Of a stretch of DNA of 64,000 nt, positions 27,769-41,311 are shown piece by piece. Each line of letters opens with the position of its first letter. Positions within the stretch are counted from its first letter, which is position 1. The stretch comes from Clostridiales bacterium. Its GTDB lineage: Bacteria > Bacillota > Clostridia > Oscillospirales > Oscillospiraceae. The stretch covers positions 1 to 64,000 of the forward strand of contig JAJUJI010000006.1 of assembly GCA_029265405.1 (NCBI GenBank), in the 5' to 3' direction. Below the pieces are notes generated by a model that saw nothing but the letters and a program-made list of their open reading frames with translations, had not been told where the DNA came from and did no database searches. The position numbers were made by a program, and so were the translations under genes.

Positions 27769-27869
27769 CAGCCTTCGGCTGGAAAGGCGCCGCCGGAGCT
27801 TTTCGCCCGGCTTGATATAATGCCGGCTCGGTGGTATGCTATTGCCGTAGGCAGAAGGAGGCGGCCGCA

Positions 27870-28508
27870 TTGCTTGAGGAGATAGAGAGGATAGTCGAAT
27901 ACGGCATATTAAAGGATATAGAGGAGGCCGTTCGCGGCGCTCTGGAGGAGGGCATCACTGCGACGGCTGTGCTTGACACCATGATAAACGCCCTTGTCAA
28001 GGTGGGCGAGAGATACCAGCGCAAGGAGATATTCGTGCCCGATATGCTGATATCGGCGATGACCATGCAGCGCGGCGTCGGTATCCTCAAGCCCTTTTTT
28101 GCGGCGGAAGGCGGGAGCAGGTACGGAAAATACATCATCGGCACCGTTCGGGGGGATCTTCACGACATAGGCAAAAACCTTGTGTCCATGATGGTGTCCG
28201 CCGCAGGCTTCGAGGTCATAGATTTGGGCGTAGACGTGCCGCCGGAAAAATTCATAGAGGCTATTAAGGAAAATCCGGATTGCCGGGTCGTGGGCATTTC
28301 GGCTCTGCTGACGACCACCCTCGAGGCTATGCGGAAAACCGTTCAGGCGATAACCGAGGCCGGGCTCCGAAGCCGGGTGAAAATAATGGTTGGGGGAACG
28401 CCGGTTACCCAGGCCTTTGCCGAGAAGATCGGGGCCGACGCATATACCCCAAACGCCGCCGAGGCGGCGCTTAAGGCAAGGGAGCTTGCGGGACAACGCG
28501 AAGATTAA
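27870..28508 (+). CDS. Corrinoid (B12-binding) methyltransferase protein
   Basis: The 212-residue protein has the helical cap domain (EEAVRGALEEGITATAVLD; KEIFVPDMLISAMTMQRG). A B12-binding Rossmann domain follows with DLHDIGKNLV, the DxHxxG motif whose His ligates cobalt, and VVGISALLTTT plus MVGGTPV. It matches MtbC/MttC/MtgC-type corrinoid proteins, which carry a methyl group between two methyltransferases. The start is TTG 27870, with AAGGAGG about 8 bases upstream. No methyltransferase is immediately adjacent; the nearest candidate is the MtaA-like gene at 33423-34418. Confidence 0.93.
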   Translation: MLEEIERIVEYGILKDIEEAVRGALEEGITATAVLDTMINALVKVGERYQRKEIFVPDMLISAMTMQRGVGILKPFFAAEGGSRYGKYIIGTVRGDLHDIGKNLVSMMVSAAGFEVIDLGVDVPPEKFIEAIKENPDCRVVGISALLTTTLEAMRKTVQAITEAGLRSRVKIMVGGTPVTQAFAEKIGADAYTPNAAEAALKARELAGQRED

Positions 28509-28595: not shown

Positions 28596-30548
28596 TCATA
28601 TGTTTTTCGCGCAGGCGTCCGCCATCGAGGTGGCCTGCATTATGTTTTTCGGCGCGGAGCAGTCGCCTATCGCGTAGAACTCGGGAGCGCACAGGCTCAG
28701 GGCGAAGGCTTCCTCGCGTAGCGGGGCCTGGCCCACGGCGTAGACGACCGTTTCGGCCTCATAAAGCTCCAGGCGTTCCTCTCGTTCGGCGGCGACGCCG
28801 GCGGGGCCTATCTCCAACGCGCGCGCGCCCAGGGCCAGCCCTATGCCGTATTTTGCTATTTCCACGTTCAAGGCAAGCTGGTGCAGCACGTTTCCGCCGC
28901 TGTTGAGCTGAGGGAGCAGCTCGACGATGGTGACCCGGCGGCCCAGCGAGGCCAGATAGATGGCAAGCTCCGTGCCCACGAGACCGCCTCCGAGTACGGC
29001 TATGCTGCGCCCGAGCCTTTCCGGGCAGGAGGCGGCTAGCCTGTAGGCCTCCTCCGCGCCGAGAACGCCTGCCCCGTCTATGCCGGGTATTGCGGGCTTG
29101 ACCGGGCGCGCGCCGAGAGCGGCTATTATGGCGTCAGGCGATAATGAAAAAGCTAGCTCCGGCGTCGCCGCCGTGTTCAGGCGCACGTCTATGCCGGCCC
29201 GTTCTATTTGCCTGATTTGATAAGCGATATAGGCCTTGATCTTGGATTTAAAGGGGACGTCCTCCTCACAGCTTAGGACTCCGCCGAGCCTGCCGGTCTT
29301 TTCGCAAAGTATGACCCTGTGGCCCCTTTCCGCGCAGGTCAGGGCCGCCTGCATGCCGCCGACGCCGCCGCCGGCGACAAGCACCGTTTTTCTTTCCATG
29401 GGCGGGTTGATATAGCGGTTTTCAAGCTCTCTGCCTATGACCGGGTTGACCGCGCAATATATCTGCCCGTTGGTTATGAGGTTGCTGAAGCAGGCCAGGC
29501 AGCGCAGGCAGGGGCGTATATCCTCGGCTTTGCCCGCGCGCGCTTTTCTGGGCAGCTCCGGGTCGGCCAGCAGGGCGCGCGCCATTTCTATCACGTCGGC
29601 CTTGCCGGAGGCTATTATCTCGTTGAGCAGCTCCGGGTCGCAGTGGGCGCCGACGGTGGCGACCGGCACCGAAACATGGGGCTTGATCGCCTCGGCGTAT
29701 TTCAGGTTGCAGGAGTCGGGCGAAAAAATACTGGGATGGGTGACGCAAAACACCTCTGGCCGCTCATGGTGACCGGCGGAAACGTGGAGCAGGTCGCAGT
29801 GCCCGTCCAGCATTTTGGCGATGGCTATGCCCTCGTCAAGATCGTAGCCCAAAGGCGTCGCCTCCGAGCCGCTTATGCGCACCTCTATCGGAAAGCCGGG
29901 GCCCACCTTTTTGCGTATCGCGTCAAGCACGGCTATGGGCATGCGGCAACGGTTTTCAAGGCTGCCTCCCCATTTGTCGCGCCGGGTGTTGACCTTGGAG
30001 GATAAAAACTGGCCAAGGCACCAGCCGTGGCCCATATGGACTGTCACCATGCCGAAGCCGCAGGACTTGACGAAGGCCGCCGCGTCGGCAAAGCGGGCAA
30101 TGGTATGCTCTATCAGCTCCTCCGGCATCTCGAAATGCTCGTTGCCGTTTGAGTCCGCGCCGTCCACGGGTCCGTAGACCCTGCCGCCCCTGAGCCTAGT
30201 GGCGTTTGCGTACATGCCCGCATGCGTGAGCTCTGCGGAGGCAATCGCCCCGTGCCGCGCCACGGCGCCCGAAAGCAGGTTGAGCGCGCGGTGGTTTGTC
30301 AAATCGTCCAGATGTATCATATGCTCGCCGAATAGGCCGTTGACGGAGTCAACCGCGCAGTCCCCCACGCATACGGAGGCCGCGCCGCCCCGGGCCTTCT
30401 CCTCGTAGAAGGCGGCGTATTCAAAGGTCGGGCGGTTGTGCGAGTCCAGGCTCCTGCCCGATATGGGCGAGGCAAACAGACGGTTTCGGAACCAGACGTT
30501 TCCCAGCCTTATCGGCTCAAATAAAAACGGATACTTGCATTTGTACAT
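28596..30548 (-). CDS. Old-yellow-enzyme-type NADH:flavin/FAD/4Fe-4S oxidoreductase
   Basis: The 650-residue protein has an N-terminal FMN TIM barrel (residues about 1-350; GHGWCLGQFLSSKVNTRRD), a cluster motif Cx2Cx2Cx11C in CLRCLACF and QIYC, and two dinucleotide-binding parts (VLVAGGGVGGMQAAL; IAVLGGGLVGTELA). This is the layout of 2,4-dienoyl-CoA reductase, trimethylamine dehydrogenase and bile-acid BaiCD/H enzymes, which reduce C=C bonds or oxidise amines. The substrate is unknown. GGAG lies 11 bases before the ATG. It is divergent from a solute-binding lipoprotein gene and may share a control region with it. Confidence 0.92.
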   Translation of the reverse strand: MYKCKYPFLFEPIRLGNVWFRNRLFASPISGRSLDSHNRPTFEYAAFYEEKARGGAASVCVGDCAVDSVNGLFGEHMIHLDDLTNHRALNLLSGAVARHGAIASAELTHAGMYANATRLRGGRVYGPVDGADSNGNEHFEMPEELIEHTIARFADAAAFVKSCGFGMVTVHMGHGWCLGQFLSSKVNTRRDKWGGSLENRCRMPIAVLDAIRKKVGPGFPIEVRISGSEATPLGYDLDEGIAIAKMLDGHCDLLHVSAGHHERPEVFCVTHPSIFSPDSCNLKYAEAIKPHVSVPVATVGAHCDPELLNEIIASGKADVIEMARALLADPELPRKARAGKAEDIRPCLRCLACFSNLITNGQIYCAVNPVIGRELENRYINPPMERKTVLVAGGGVGGMQAALTCAERGHRVILCEKTGRLGGVLSCEEDVPFKSKIKAYIAYQIRQIERAGIDVRLNTAATPELAFSLSPDAIIAALGARPVKPAIPGIDGAGVLGAEEAYRLAASCPERLGRSIAVLGGGLVGTELAIYLASLGRRVTIVELLPQLNSGGNVLHQLALNVEIAKYGIGLALGARALEIGPAGVAAEREERLELYEAETVVYAVGQAPLREEAFALSLCAPEFYAIGDCSAPKNIMQATSMADACAKNI

Positions 30549-33422: not shown

Positions 33423-34418
33423 TCAGCCGGCTTTTTTGTAGTAGTCCCTTACGGTTGAATAGTAATAGTCCCTTATTATGTCCATTTTATGCCTTACCCG
33501 CGGGTCGTCGGGTTTGCCGCCGACCATGGGCATGTAGACAAAGCCGCCGCCGGGGGCAAAGGTGGAGACGTATTTCTCCAGCGCCTCTCTCAGCGTGTCG
33601 TCCGGCACATCAGGGCTGCCGAGCGGGCCCTGATTGTCCCAGCAGCCGGCAAGGGCCAGCCTTCCGGCGTATTTTTTCTTGATAAGCGGCAGGTTGTTGA
33701 CGGTTTGCGCCGGGTTCCACCCGCGTATGCCCAGCTCCAGCCAGTCGTCTATGAAGTCCTCGCAGCGGCCGCAGTCGTGCCGCTCTATAAGCATTCCGTT
33801 TTCAAGAGCCAGGTCGCAGTGCTTCTTGTGCAGCGGCTTGAAGAATTCCCTGTACATTTCCGGAGAGAAGAAGGGGCTTTTTAGCGCCGAGTCGTCGTCC
33901 ATGAGATTGTAGATGTCAGGCTTGCAATACTGTATCTGACGCTTCATCACCTCTAGATAAAATTCGGAAACGTATTCAAGCAGGGCCTTGACCTCCTCCG
34001 GCTCCTCGTAGAGGGATATAAGCGCGCCCTCGAAGCCCATGAAGCTGACCAGGGTCAGGAAATAGTCGCCGCCGTGGACGCTGAGGGTCTTGTTTTCCCT
34101 ATCCTTGCCCTCCAGCGCCTTCTTGTAATACGCCTCCCAGTCCCGGCCTGAAAGGTCGGGATTTTTTATTACGTCTCGCCATTTTGTTATATCGCGCAGT
34201 ATGACCTTGCCGGGCGTTGGCAGCGCGCCCCAATTGATTTCCCTGCTGCCTATGTATTCAACCCCGTATACTGTGACAACCGGCCCGTTTGGCGCCATGA
34301 CGGGAGCCAGCAGCTCGTCGGCTATCATTTCGTTTGCCGGTTCAATATAGGACGGGACGAATTCAGGGATCTCCCCCCTGAGCATGCGCAGATAGTTTTC
34401 CTTTGGAGTCAGGCCCAT
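33423..34418 (-). CDS. Uroporphyrinogen decarboxylase (URO-D)/MtaA-family methyltransferase
   Basis: The 331-residue protein has the URO-D fold pattern. Its IERHDCGRC contains an HxCG motif, which in MtaA/MtbA/CmuA-type enzymes supplies zinc ligands for activating a thiol methyl acceptor; true HemE lacks it. An Asp-rich NLMDDDSALKSPFF and a C-terminal GGGFVYMPMVGG are also present. It is therefore likely a corrinoid-dependent methyltransferase, not a heme enzyme. ATG 34418 is preferred over ATG 34427 because AAAGG lies 9 bases before the former and touches the latter. The acceptor is unknown; homocysteine is a candidate because of the next operon. Confidence 0.88.
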   Translation of the reverse strand: MGLTPKENYLRMLRGEIPEFVPSYIEPANEMIADELLAPVMAPNGPVVTVYGVEYIGSREINWGALPTPGKVILRDITKWRDVIKNPDLSGRDWEAYYKKALEGKDRENKTLSVHGGDYFLTLVSFMGFEGALISLYEEPEEVKALLEYVSEFYLEVMKRQIQYCKPDIYNLMDDDSALKSPFFSPEMYREFFKPLHKKHCDLALENGMLIERHDCGRCEDFIDDWLELGIRGWNPAQTVNNLPLIKKKYAGRLALAGCWDNQGPLGSPDVPDDTLREALEKYVSTFAPGGGFVYMPMVGGKPDDPRVRHKMDIIRDYYYSTVRDYYKKAG

Positions 34419-34489
34419 TTGCAACATCCTTTCAATCCGCGTTTATAGCTGTTAATCTTATATTAATATATTATGCACAAAACGCCGGA

Positions 34490-34531
34490 TAAAACAAGAC
34501 GGCGGCGCCGTCTTTTTGACGGCGCCGCCGC
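34490..34531 (-). terminator. Terminator of the COG1900 operon
   Basis: GGCGGCGCCGTC pairs perfectly with GACGGCGCCGCC. On the minus strand it is followed by GTCTTGTTTT. Confidence 0.75.
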
Positions 34532-34551: not shown

Positions 34552-35298
34552 TCAAGGCTCCACGAGTCTCAGTTCGATGCCGCCCTTGACGCCCAGCCTG
34601 TCTCCTATTATCACGAGCGCGCCGGAAACGCCGCGTATTCCCAGGGCCGCGTCCAGCGCGGGCTCTATGTCCTCCGCCGTCCGCACCAGGTTGCCGAGAA
34701 AGGTGGCGGCGGCGTCGGCAAGGGCGCAGTCCGCGGCGACGATCAGAGCCGCGTCTGCCTTGCCGAAGCTGACGGAGTGGCCGACGGTGCCGGAGGAGGT
34801 GCAGATGCCCAGGCCGTCCTTCGGCAGCACGGCCACGGCAAGCCTGCCGCCAAGGGGGCTGCTTCCGGCGTGTACGGCGACCAGCCGCTCGCGGGAGGAG
34901 CGAAGGAACACGTCGCCCCCGTTTTCTACTATCACCTCGTCGGATTGCGGCAGCAGGGCGCGGCCCACGTATTCGGCTATGGCGCCCGCCACGGCCGCCA
35001 TGGGGCCGACGGAGGCCGCCTCTCCCGCCCTAAGCATGGCGGAAACCAGCTCCGTTTCCGTGCCGTGGGGCTTGATGGGCTCAAAGGAGACGGCAAAGCG
35101 GGGCCTTGCAGCAATGGCGGCCTTGATTTCGGCCCGGGCCTTCAGCACGGCGGCCAGAGCCTCCTTTTGCAGAAAGCGCCTTGCGCCTATGTGCAGGTCC
35201 GTTTCCCCGGCGCTTACCCGGAAATAGACGAGGTCCCCGGCCCTGTGCAGCGCCCTGTAAGCCCTGTCGGCGTAGGGGTCGAATATCCCGTCCTTCAT
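34552..35298 (-). CDS. UPF0280 (COG2122) ApbE-like protein, likely sulfide assimilation/homocysteine factor
   Basis: The 248-residue protein has the UPF0280 pattern: DPYADRAYRALHRAGDLVYF near the start, then AVAGAIAEYVGRALL, VIVENGGDVFLRS, and a final TSSGTVGHSVSFGKADAAL, which resembles ApbE-type FMN transferase folds. In Methanosarcina a COG2122 protein is needed for efficient sulfide use in homocysteine formation. Here it is the last gene of a three-gene operon with the other two parts, 33 bp behind the NIL-ferredoxin. The upstream site (AAGG) is weak, suggesting coupling to the gene before. Confidence 0.88.
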   Translation of the reverse strand: MKDGIFDPYADRAYRALHRAGDLVYFRVSAGETDLHIGARRFLQKEALAAVLKARAEIKAAIAARPRFAVSFEPIKPHGTETELVSAMLRAGEAASVGPMAAVAGAIAEYVGRALLPQSDEVIVENGGDVFLRSSRERLVAVHAGSSPLGGRLAVAVLPKDGLGICTSSGTVGHSVSFGKADAALIVAADCALADAAATFLGNLVRTAEDIEPALDAALGIRGVSGALVIIGDRLGVKGGIELRLVEP

Positions 35299-35331
35299 GG
35301 CCTTGCCGCCCGGAGCGAGCCGCCCGCTTCC

Positions 35332-35760
35332 TCAGGACTCATTTCCGTTGTATATGTCCACCCGAACCGCGCCGGTGGGGCAGGCCTTTACGCACATCTC
35401 GCATACAACGCAGCTTTCGTTGTTGAAGCTGAGTTCAGCGGTAACCGGATCAAGGGTGAGGGCCTTGTGAAGGCAGACGGCGGTGCAGGCCCCGCAATGC
35501 ACGCAGGAGGCGTCGTTCCAAACTATGGCCTTGGATAGTATTTTGACCCTGACGTTGCGCTCCGCGGCGTAGGCCAGGGCGCGCTCTATGTCCTCGGCCT
35601 CCCCCGTCAGGTCCATTATCATCCTGCCGCCCCTTCCGGGCATAATGTCGGCCTGCAAAATGGAGAATACGAGGCCGAACTTGGTGGCGAAAAGGTGGAC
35701 GAAGGGCTTTTCCGTGTCCGTCGTGTTGAATTGGAGCCTCACCTTCACCGATTTTTGCAT
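35332..35760 (-). CDS. NIL domain-ferredoxin fusion
   Basis: The 142-residue protein has an N-terminal NIL-type ligand-binding domain (about 1-75; VKVRLQFNTTDTEKPFVHLF) like that of MetN methionine importers. A two-cluster 4Fe-4S ferredoxin follows, with CVHCGACTAVCLHKA and CVVCEMCVKACPTGA. This NIL-Fer form is the known partner of COG1900 proteins in anaerobic homocysteine synthesis, probably supplying electrons or sensing a sulfur amino acid. ATG 35760 follows AAGGAAGGA; an upstream in-frame ATG at 35781 lacks a site. It is 57 bp behind the COG1900 gene. Confidence 0.93.
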   Translation of the reverse strand: MQKSVKVRLQFNTTDTEKPFVHLFATKFGLVFSILQADIMPGRGGRMIMDLTGEAEDIERALAYAAERNVRVKILSKAIVWNDASCVHCGACTAVCLHKALTLDPVTAELSFNNESCVVCEMCVKACPTGAVRVDIYNGNES

Positions 35761-35817
35761 TGCGGCTGTCCTTCCTTTCAATCGTTTTGATGCCGAGGGC
35801 TTCGCGGCCCGCCTTTG

Positions 35818-36969
35818 CTATCTTTCAAGCAGGGGCTTCTTCACCGTGTCAAGCTGGAGCCTGGCGGACGGCTCGGTCAAAAGGAAAACGCCGCTTTGGA
35901 CTCTCGCCTTCAGCACCGCCGCGATCTCCCTGGCCTTCTTTAAGCTGGACAGAGGAGCCGTCGGCACCTTCTTCCCGTTTAGCTCTATCTCGCCGCTCCT
36001 AAGCTCGGCATAGCTGACCTTTTCCCTGAGAACGGGGCGCTTGCGCAGGGGAACGGAATAGTCGTATACCTCGGTATACAGCTCGTCGTTGGGGCGGGCA
36101 AGCTGGGCCAGCAGGTCCTCGTCAAGCACCGGGAAGGGTATGCCGATGCCGACAAAAAGGGAAACTCCGTATTTATATATGCGCGCGGCCCTGATATAGT
36201 CCGTGCTCATCTTTTTCATATCTCCTATGAGGGCAAGGGTCGCCCCGCCGAAGGAGCTCGTTCCGTCGGAATACTCCGTGCGCGAGGGGAAGCACTGCGT
36301 GCCCTCCCAGACCACGTAGCCCTCGGCCCCGCCAAGAAATACGCGGGTGCCTATGCCTATCGTGCGCAGCTCCGGGTCCTTCAGCAGGGGGCTGAGCTCG
36401 CCTGAGGTGGCATAGGTCGCGTTGGCGCAGCGGGGAAGAAGCGTGCCCATGTAGGTGTGAAGCACCCTCTCGGAGCTGTTGGAGGCGCAGGAATAGTTCT
36501 GGTAGGCGTTGCGCGGGTTGAACATGAAGCACTGGTTCATGTCCTCAAGGCGCACCGCCGTATCCAGCTCCCGGCGGGGATAGCAGTCCGTCCCGTATGA
36601 GCGGGCGGAAAGGCGTATATCCTTACCGGCTATAAGGTCCTCGATGACGTGGGCGCCGCCGTACTCCATGCCCCGTGTGGAGCTGAGCTCCGTTGCGCCT
36701 ATGTAGCAGTCCACTGCGGCTATGCCCGCGTATGCTGGCACGTCGTTGAGAGTCACTCCAGACATTCGGATGAGGGGTTCTCCGTGGCCGAAGTTGAGGA
36801 AAGCGCCGCTGGAGCACATGGGGCTGAAGGTGCCCGTGGTGACCACGTCCACCCGCCTGGCGGTTTCCCTGACGCCGTGGGTTTTGGCCATCTCTATGAC
36901 CTCCTCGGCCGTCAGAACCACGGCTTTTCCCTCTTTGATTTTTTCGTTGATTTCGCTTACGGTTTTCAA
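35818..36969 (-). CDS. COG1900/DUF39 homocysteine biosynthesis protein
   Basis: In methanogens this protein replaces a homocysteine residue-forming sulfhydrylase: it helps convert aspartate semialdehyde and sulfide to homocysteine. The 383-residue protein has VVTTGTFSPMCSSGAFLNFG with Cys52 and YGTDCYPRRE with Cys129. From memory, two essential cysteines in the Methanosarcina protein have the same spacing. Other landmarks are YQNYSCASNSSER and GGAEGYVVWEGTQCFP. The start is TTG 36969 with GGAGGGG 7 bases upstream. It leads the operon with the NIL-ferredoxin and COG2122 genes under its own promoter. Confidence 0.92.
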   Translation of the reverse strand: MKTVSEINEKIKEGKAVVLTAEEVIEMAKTHGVRETARRVDVVTTGTFSPMCSSGAFLNFGHGEPLIRMSGVTLNDVPAYAGIAAVDCYIGATELSSTRGMEYGGAHVIEDLIAGKDIRLSARSYGTDCYPRRELDTAVRLEDMNQCFMFNPRNAYQNYSCASNSSERVLHTYMGTLLPRCANATYATSGELSPLLKDPELRTIGIGTRVFLGGAEGYVVWEGTQCFPSRTEYSDGTSSFGGATLALIGDMKKMSTDYIRAARIYKYGVSLFVGIGIPFPVLDEDLLAQLARPNDELYTEVYDYSVPLRKRPVLREKVSYAELRSGEIELNGKKVPTAPLSSLKKAREIAAVLKARVQSGVFLLTEPSARLQLDTVKKPLLER

Positions 36970-37022: not shown

Positions 37023-37050
37023 ACTATACGCCTCGATATGCGCATGTCAA
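37023..37050 (-). promoter_or_regulatory. Promoter of the COG1900 operon
   Basis: On the minus strand TTGACA (37050-37045) and TATAGT (37028-37023) are 16 bases apart, about 53 bp before the TTG start. I see no S-box or T-box of normal length between them. Confidence 0.7.
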
Positions 37051-40189: not shown

Positions 40190-41311
40190 ATGAAAGAGTT
40201 TGAGCTTAAATACGGCTGCAACCCAAACCAGAAGCCCGCAAGAATCTACATGGAGGACGGCGGCAGCCTTCCGGTGGAAATACTGGGCGGCCGGCCCGGC
40301 TATATAAATTTTCTGGACGCTCTCAACGGCTGGCAGCTTGTCAGGGAGCTGGACGAGGCGCTGGGCCTGCCGGCTGCCGCCTCCTTCAAGCACGTAAGCC
40401 CCAGCTCCGCGGCCATAGGGCTGCCTCTGGGCGAGGCGCTCAAAAGGGCCTGCTTTGTGGACGATATAGACGGGCTGGACGATTCGCCCCTGGCCTGCGC
40501 CTACGCAAGGGCCAGAGGGACAGACCGCATGTCCTCCTTCGGGGACTGGGTGGCGCTCTCCCGGCCCTGCGACGAGGTGACGGCGAGAATAATAAGGCGC
40601 GAGGTATCCGACGGGGTCATAGCGCCCGGCTACTCGCCCAAGGCGCTTGAGATATTGAAGGGCAAGAAGAAGGGCGGCTACAACGTAGTCAGGATAGATC
40701 CCTGCTACGAGCCGGCGCCGCTGGAGAAAAAGCAGGTGTTCGGCGTCACCTTCCAGCAAGGGAGGAATGACGTGAAGATAGGCCCGGAGCTTTTTAAAAA
40801 CATAGTGACGAAAAACCGGGAGCTTCCGCCGGAGGCGGCGAGGGACCTGACGGTTTCGCTGATAACGCTGAAATATACCCAGTCCAACTCGGTCTGCTAC
40901 GCACTGGACGGGCAGGCCATAGGCGTGGGAGCGGGGCAGCAGTCGCGCATACACTGCACCAGGCTGGCCGGGGACAAGGCGGACAAATGGCTGCTCAGGC
41001 AGAGCGACCTGCTTCTTGGCCTGTCCTTCCCAAAGGATATGGGCAGGGCCGACAGGGACAACGCCATAGACGTCTACATCGACGAAATGCCCAAGGAGAA
41101 AAAGCGCGAATATCTTGATAAAATAAAAGGAGTTGCCCTGGGGAGCGACGCTTTCTTCCCCTTCGGGGACAATATAGAGCGCGCGAGGCTCAGCGGCGTG
41201 TCCTATGTGGCGGAGCCTGGCGGCTCCGTGCGGGACGACGCCGTGATCGAGGCCTGCGACAAATACGGGATTGTGATGGCCTTTACCGGCGTGCGGCTGT
41301 TCCATCACTGA
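40190..41311 (+). CDS. Stand-alone AICAR transformylase (PurH C-terminal type)
   Basis: This enzyme formylates AICAR to FAICAR. The 373-residue protein carries only the transformylase part of PurH: ASFKHVSPSSAAIG with the catalytic Lys-His, LKYTQSNSVCYA and GVGAGQQSRIHC. The IMP cyclohydrolase domain of normal bifunctional PurH (about 510 residues) is absent. A separate cyclohydrolase must then exist elsewhere, since none is in this window. GAGGTGG lies before the ATG. It sits between purN and purD as purH normally does. Confidence 0.93.
   Translation: MKEFELKYGCNPNQKPARIYMEDGGSLPVEILGGRPGYINFLDALNGWQLVRELDEALGLPAAASFKHVSPSSAAIGLPLGEALKRACFVDDIDGLDDSPLACAYARARGTDRMSSFGDWVALSRPCDEVTARIIRREVSDGVIAPGYSPKALEILKGKKKGGYNVVRIDPCYEPAPLEKKQVFGVTFQQGRNDVKIGPELFKNIVTKNRELPPEAARDLTVSLITLKYTQSNSVCYALDGQAIGVGAGQQSRIHCTRLAGDKADKWLLRQSDLLLGLSFPKDMGRADRDNAIDVYIDEMPKEKKREYLDKIKGVALGSDAFFPFGDNIERARLSGVSYVAEPGGSVRDDAVIEACDKYGIVMAFTGVRLFHH

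Follow-up and report, generated by a model that had tools for sequence, protein, structure and literature searches.

A route that forms homocysteine directly from aspartate semialdehyde and sulfide has been described before, in methanogens and in sulfate reducers. In Methanosarcina acetivorans it is associated with MA1821/MA1822 and MA1715; as stated in PMC12068725, MA1821 depends on Cys54 but can do without Cys131, and PMC5764234 describes a persulfide carried on a conserved cysteine of this protein. According to PMC12068725, methionine and SAM presumably exert feedback through the NIL and CBS domains. The same three families, there called DUF39, NIL-ferredoxin and COG2122, have been described in bacteria, namely in Desulfovibrio and, as DET0921:DET0919, in Dehalococcoides; D. 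vulgaris needs them for methionine, since mutants in these families are rescued by it (PMC5764234). In addition, predicted COG1900 and COG2122 proteins have been tied to gut taxa that include a Ruminococcaceae group (PMC10811106). On the trio in Oscillospiraceae, the literature search, in which subscription journals were thinly covered, returned no title.

The window analysed here, a stretch of 64,000 nucleotides from a Clostridiales bacterium, likewise encodes a COG1900a protein with two conserved cysteines (HcyS), a NIL-ferredoxin and a COG2122 protein, adjacent and on one strand (Table 1). A sequence-only reading of this DNA had identified the three genes correctly, had described them as fused into one unit, and had concluded that the organism can skip O-acetylhomoserine-based methionine synthesis. 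The genes are in fact separate, the listed ORFs being spaced by 36 and 33 nt, and they form one cluster, whereas those of D. vulgaris have far-apart locus numbers as given in PMC5764234. It is very probable that the operon is a direct homocysteine route which works beside a complete O-acetylhomoserine pathway and does not replace it.

Table 1. Features of the trio locus (positions in the window)
Feature	Positions	Strand	Description
Trio operon	36969-34552	minus	HcyS, then NIL-ferredoxin, then COG2122; from ORF listing and profile searches
hcyS / COG1900 (PF01837, HcyBio)	35818..36969	-	383 aa, TTG start, Cys52 and Cys129, without CBS domain
NIL-domain ferredoxin	35332..35781	-	149-aa ORF from first TTG, two 4Fe-4S motifs
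COG2122 / UPF0280 protein	34552..35298	-	248 aa, conserved Cys166
Promoter-like site TTGACA-16-TATAGT	37023..37050	-	53 nt from hcyS start codon
Intrinsic-terminator-like hairpin	34499..34531	-	14 pairs, T-rich tail

HcyS matches the full-length PF01837 model (1-349 of 349) with 483.4 bits against a cut-off of 26.2, and the domain search of this protein returned PF01837 only, with neither a CBS domain nor an inserted ferredoxin domain. The methanogen subunit, as published, has a C-terminal CBS domain, whereas the 383-aa window protein ends without one; because this domain is absent, SAM control through it is not expected here. In an alignment of the window protein with the best 80 of 118 relatives, the two cysteines that the sequence-only reading had singled out, Cys52 and Cys129, are cysteine in 81 of 81 rows, and the remaining five vary. 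They probably correspond to Cys54 and Cys131 of MA1821, a match made from the numbering given in PMC12068725 and from the Methanosarcinaceae rows of the alignment, MA1821 itself lying outside it. The predicted structure is confident (pLDDT 92.8). With an E limit of 0.001, a Foldseek search of the model against the PDB was empty, and in a second structural comparison, with 997 chains, no Z reached 5 (highest 3.6); these missing matches are not evidence of a new fold. The sole PDB sequence match, 4pux_A, has an E of 0.12 and was not counted as a relative.

Two relatives stand out by their HcyS frames. In an Aminicenantes bin (L084:6001-7341) the protein ends in a ferredoxin-like extension at the place which the CBS domain occupies in archaeal HcyS, and is possibly a natural HcyS-ferredoxin fusion. 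At L044:1-1080 the hcyS frame breaks after 164 aa and the tblastn match goes on, which points to a gene that is broken or to an error in sequencing.

The ferredoxin joins a NIL domain (52.6 bits), resembling the C-terminal domain of the methionine transporter MetN, to its cluster motifs. In ORF numbering the cluster cysteines are Cys93, 96, 99, 103 and Cys124, 127, 130, 134, each of them present in 64-65 of 67 rows, with gaps in the rest. As the ATG at 35760 (142 aa) follows GGAAGG and coincides with the beginning of related proteins, it is a likelier start than the first TTG. The third protein scores 270.6 bits with the COG2122 family model NF003323 (7-248 of 250), 0.4 under the cut-off of 271; it is related to PDB chain 2o34_A (E 6.1e-36), and its Cys166 occurs in 50 of 51 rows, the other being a gap.

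Because of family membership, the invariant cysteines and the conserved gene neighbourhood, the assignment to the sulfide-to-homocysteine pathway, already made in the sequence-only reading, is well supported. For the chemistry, electron donor and regulation we infer, by analogy with the described systems, the following scheme. HcyS, being of the COG1900a type, would take up sulfur, which Cys52 would probably carry as a persulfide, and would transfer it to the aldehyde carbon of aspartate semialdehyde, after which two electrons from the NIL-ferredoxin would reduce a thioaldehyde-like intermediate to homocysteine. The HcyS with a ferredoxin-like extension in L084 fits such direct electron delivery. 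COG2122 would aid the delivery of sulfide sulfur to HcyS, and the NIL domain would probably sense methionine. Overall, aspartate semialdehyde, sulfide and electrons would yield homocysteine.

If the operon replaced the classical pathway, homocysteine would arise by the direct route only, and a complete trio with both cysteines present agrees with this idea. However, the same assembly (2.48 Mb, 98.8% complete, with one PF01837 gene) encodes homoserine dehydrogenase, an acetyl-type MetA and MetY, all above cut-off and without internal stops. MetA, on contig C9, scores 500.5 bits with the acetyl-type model NF047918 (cut-off 460.5) and 460.3 bits with the succinyl-type model (cut-off 495), and its position 111 is Glu, which we take to be the acetyl-CoA-type residue. 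MetY (TIGR01326, 634.7 bits, cut-off 495.1) lies on the same contig, separated from MetA by CysK and an Rrf2 regulator, and homoserine dehydrogenase (374.7 bits, cut-off 205) lies on contig C10. The genome search for metA/metX and metY that the sequence-only reading had proposed thus recovered MetA and MetY; MetX gave no match at E 1e-20 in this genome, where MetA serves as the acyltransferase. Judged from the gene content, the O-acetylhomoserine route is complete, in the sense of Hom, MetA and MetY; aspartate kinase and aspartate semialdehyde dehydrogenase, needed by both routes, are outside this count, and the latter is assumed to be present. Threonine would account for homoserine dehydrogenase alone, and not for MetA and MetY, so that replacement of the classical pathway is very unlikely.

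With MetA and MetY present, methionine synthesis in this organism can be explained without the operon, which is probably functional but additional. A full classical pathway together with loss of activity of the COG1900 cysteines had been named beforehand as what would speak against the skipping of O-acetylhomoserine: the pathway is there at the gene level, and the cysteines are retained. Such coexistence with MetA/MetY also sets the window route apart from that of M. acetivorans, and for D. vulgaris the account in PMC5764234 is of no well-characterized classical pathway found, in contrast to the complete one of this genome.

Two further observations concern the same genome. A 282-aa single-domain homocysteine S-methyltransferase-like protein (G000:C8:13837-14643, L113) is the only PF02574 match and falls below all NCBIfam cut-offs shown; the methionine synthase of this organism may be split or unusual. 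The organism had also been called spore-forming; Spo0A is present (258.6 bits, cut-off 200), which speaks for the potential only.

Coexistence of the two routes was followed in 40 hcyS genomes, consisting of the genomes of 39 of the best 80 loci (all bacterial) and the window's own. An acyltransferase and MetY occur together in 19 of them: MetA and MetY are over cut-off in 14 (in G304, MetA is in two pieces on two contigs), and 5 have MetY over cut-off with 440-470 bits for MetX, whose cut-off of 500 bits is strict, as 0 of 14 control genomes pass it and 7 have a match. MetA without a full MetY is seen in two genomes, one of which (G301) has a short MetY end piece only. In the other 19, neither combination was found, absences that are soft because the bins may be incomplete; G308 and G316, among them, encode a different MetY-superfamily protein. 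The complete-pair state changes at least 10 times among 39 rows on the HcyS gene tree, and the complete classical pair is therefore patchy over the tree.

The two nearest genomes, G295 and G296, have both routes. In the third nearest, the metagenome bin G297 (L016), no MetA, MetX or full MetY was found; these genes may simply be unassembled, and their lack is as expected if HcyS can suffice there. As a separate observation, six loci from syntrophic or deltaproteobacterial bins (L055, L060, L062, L064, L065 and L068) have HcyS with no NIL-ferredoxin or COG2122 found in the 6 kb downstream; for three such bins the genome was examined, and MetY together with a MetX-like gene is present in G329 and G330, and G331 has neither.

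Since a classical pathway complete at the gene level already covers methionine, the trio could be imagined to make another small thiol from another aldehyde, comparable to methanogenesis marker 16 (MMP16) for coenzyme M, and COG1900 does have a branch with a different product (PMC12068725). HcyS is of the same superfamily as MMP16/ComF (COG1900d), but its 122.8 bits with the MMP16 model TIGR03287 are far below the cut-off of 363.95, it has no inserted ferredoxin domain, and its conserved cysteines are those of COG1900a and differ from those published for MMP16/ComF. Furthermore, the NIL domain resembles that of MetN, and the 21 of 40 hcyS genomes without a complete classical pair fit homocysteine as the product. 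A different thiol is consequently an improbable product, and homocysteine remains the preferred one.

To place the operon among its relatives, genome contigs were scanned, and from the 118 HcyS relatives recovered the best 80 were taken as loci; partners were sought by tblastn with the window proteins at E 1e-3, a search by which distant partners may be missed. All three genes occur in 50 of these best 80 of 118 loci, always in the same order and on one strand, and the 50 include L084, where the ferredoxin match is inside the HcyS frame. HcyS with NIL-ferredoxin and without COG2122 accounts for 16 of the 80, and no partner was found near HcyS in 14, of which 5 have less than 1.4 kb of downstream DNA and 8 have 6 kb. 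According to the record labels, the trio is found in Clostridia, Atribacterota and methanogens. Together with the published cases of Desulfovibrio and Dehalococcoides (PMC5764234), these counts mean that the trio is not new in bacteria.

In the window's own order, PF01837 is present in 1 of 295 sampled genomes and MetA (PF04204) in 255 of 295, and the single occurrence of PF01837 may point to a gain in this lineage. On the HcyS tree the window groups with L014 and L015 (100/98) and then with L016 (100/99 for the four), all three being bins labelled Oscillospiraceae or Ruminococcaceae. L015 is from sheep rumen and L016 from goat cecum; the RUG label of L014 presumably stands for rumen. Protein identity between the window and L014/L015 is 78% for HcyS and 62-73% for neighbours, and that with the nearest relatives is 59-62% for MetA and 64% for MetY; for the ten remaining proteins of the metA stretch, four stretches taken from the nearest relatives gave no match. 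The G+C content of the operon is 62.3%, compared with 57.2% (sd 3.0%) in stretches of equal length (2418 nt) from the window, 121 of 124 of which are lower. Composition speaks neither for nor against a foreign origin, as the metA-metY stretch (L013, 60.7%) and the loci of the nearest relatives (64.0, 65.3 and 55.8%) span similar values.

The rarity of PF01837 in the order would also suit a recent, little-used and unexpressed acquisition. Against this, each of the three frames is uninterrupted across the whole length of its family, and sites of the GGAGGGG and GGAAGG type precede the starts of hcyS (the TTG) and of the ferredoxin. A promoter-like site upstream and a terminator-like hairpin downstream frame the operon, as the sequence-only reading had noticed. 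Scans for such sites are little proof by themselves because these also arise by chance: the 4.5 kb covered gave 7 promoter-like sites, with 1.7 (sd 1.4) expected, and 10 terminator-like sites, with 6.1 (sd 2.5) expected. The promoter-like site before hcyS is one of the two best in the scan, and TTGACA-17-TACGAT stands upstream of hcyS in both L014 and L015; L016 has TATAAT with a poorer first hexamer. Gene order up to the flavoenzyme downstream is partly common with L014 and L015 at 62-78% identity, which speaks for long retention. A recent and silent acquisition is thus most improbable.

The gene next upstream of the operon has the opposite orientation, and the URO-D-like gene downstream lies past the terminator-like hairpin. 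The three genes are predicted to share a single transcript. As for RNA control, only tRNA was above threshold among known RNA families in the window, the metA-metY stretch and related loci (12 sources), and a riboswitch or other known RNA element was rejected for the operon.

Other genes of the window deserve mention. A URO-D/MtaA-like methyltransferase gene (33423-34427) and a gene for an MtgC/MtbC-like corrinoid protein (27831-28508) are within 10 kb of the operon, both below NCBIfam cut-offs; they may represent a methyl-transfer system, which possibly feeds methionine synthesis. Positions 28596-30548 encode a 650-aa flavoenzyme of the old-yellow-enzyme type. In L014 its orthologue (73%) directly follows the trio, and L015 has, behind its trio, an orthologue of the URO-D-like gene (73%), which begins about 40 nt after COG2122, and then one of the flavoenzyme (71%); none of the remaining loci among the best 80 of 118 showed either orthologue. 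A stand-alone AICAR formyltransferase (40190-41311; NF005492, 613.9 bits, cut-off 415) is without the IMP cyclohydrolase part of PurH, and its neighbours may be purE, purM and purN.

The point of interest is the coexistence of the trio with MetA/MetY, and why both are kept is a modest question. It is conceivable, albeit rather doubtful, that a group of Clostridia, several of them gut-derived, has two independent sulfide-to-homocysteine routes per cell, one an acetyl-CoA-consuming PLP route and the other ferredoxin-driven with direct methionine feedback through the NIL domain, switched by sulfide level or redox state, the trio having maybe drifted to another thiol. In general, a COG1900 trio in a bacterium does not imply that the classical pathway is missing, as 19 of the 40 hcyS genomes seem to have both; when methionine auxotrophy is predicted or communities are modelled, the two routes should be handled separately and as frequently redundant. 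A comparison of the nearest relatives, of which two have both routes and the third gave no classical pair, could show when each route is used.
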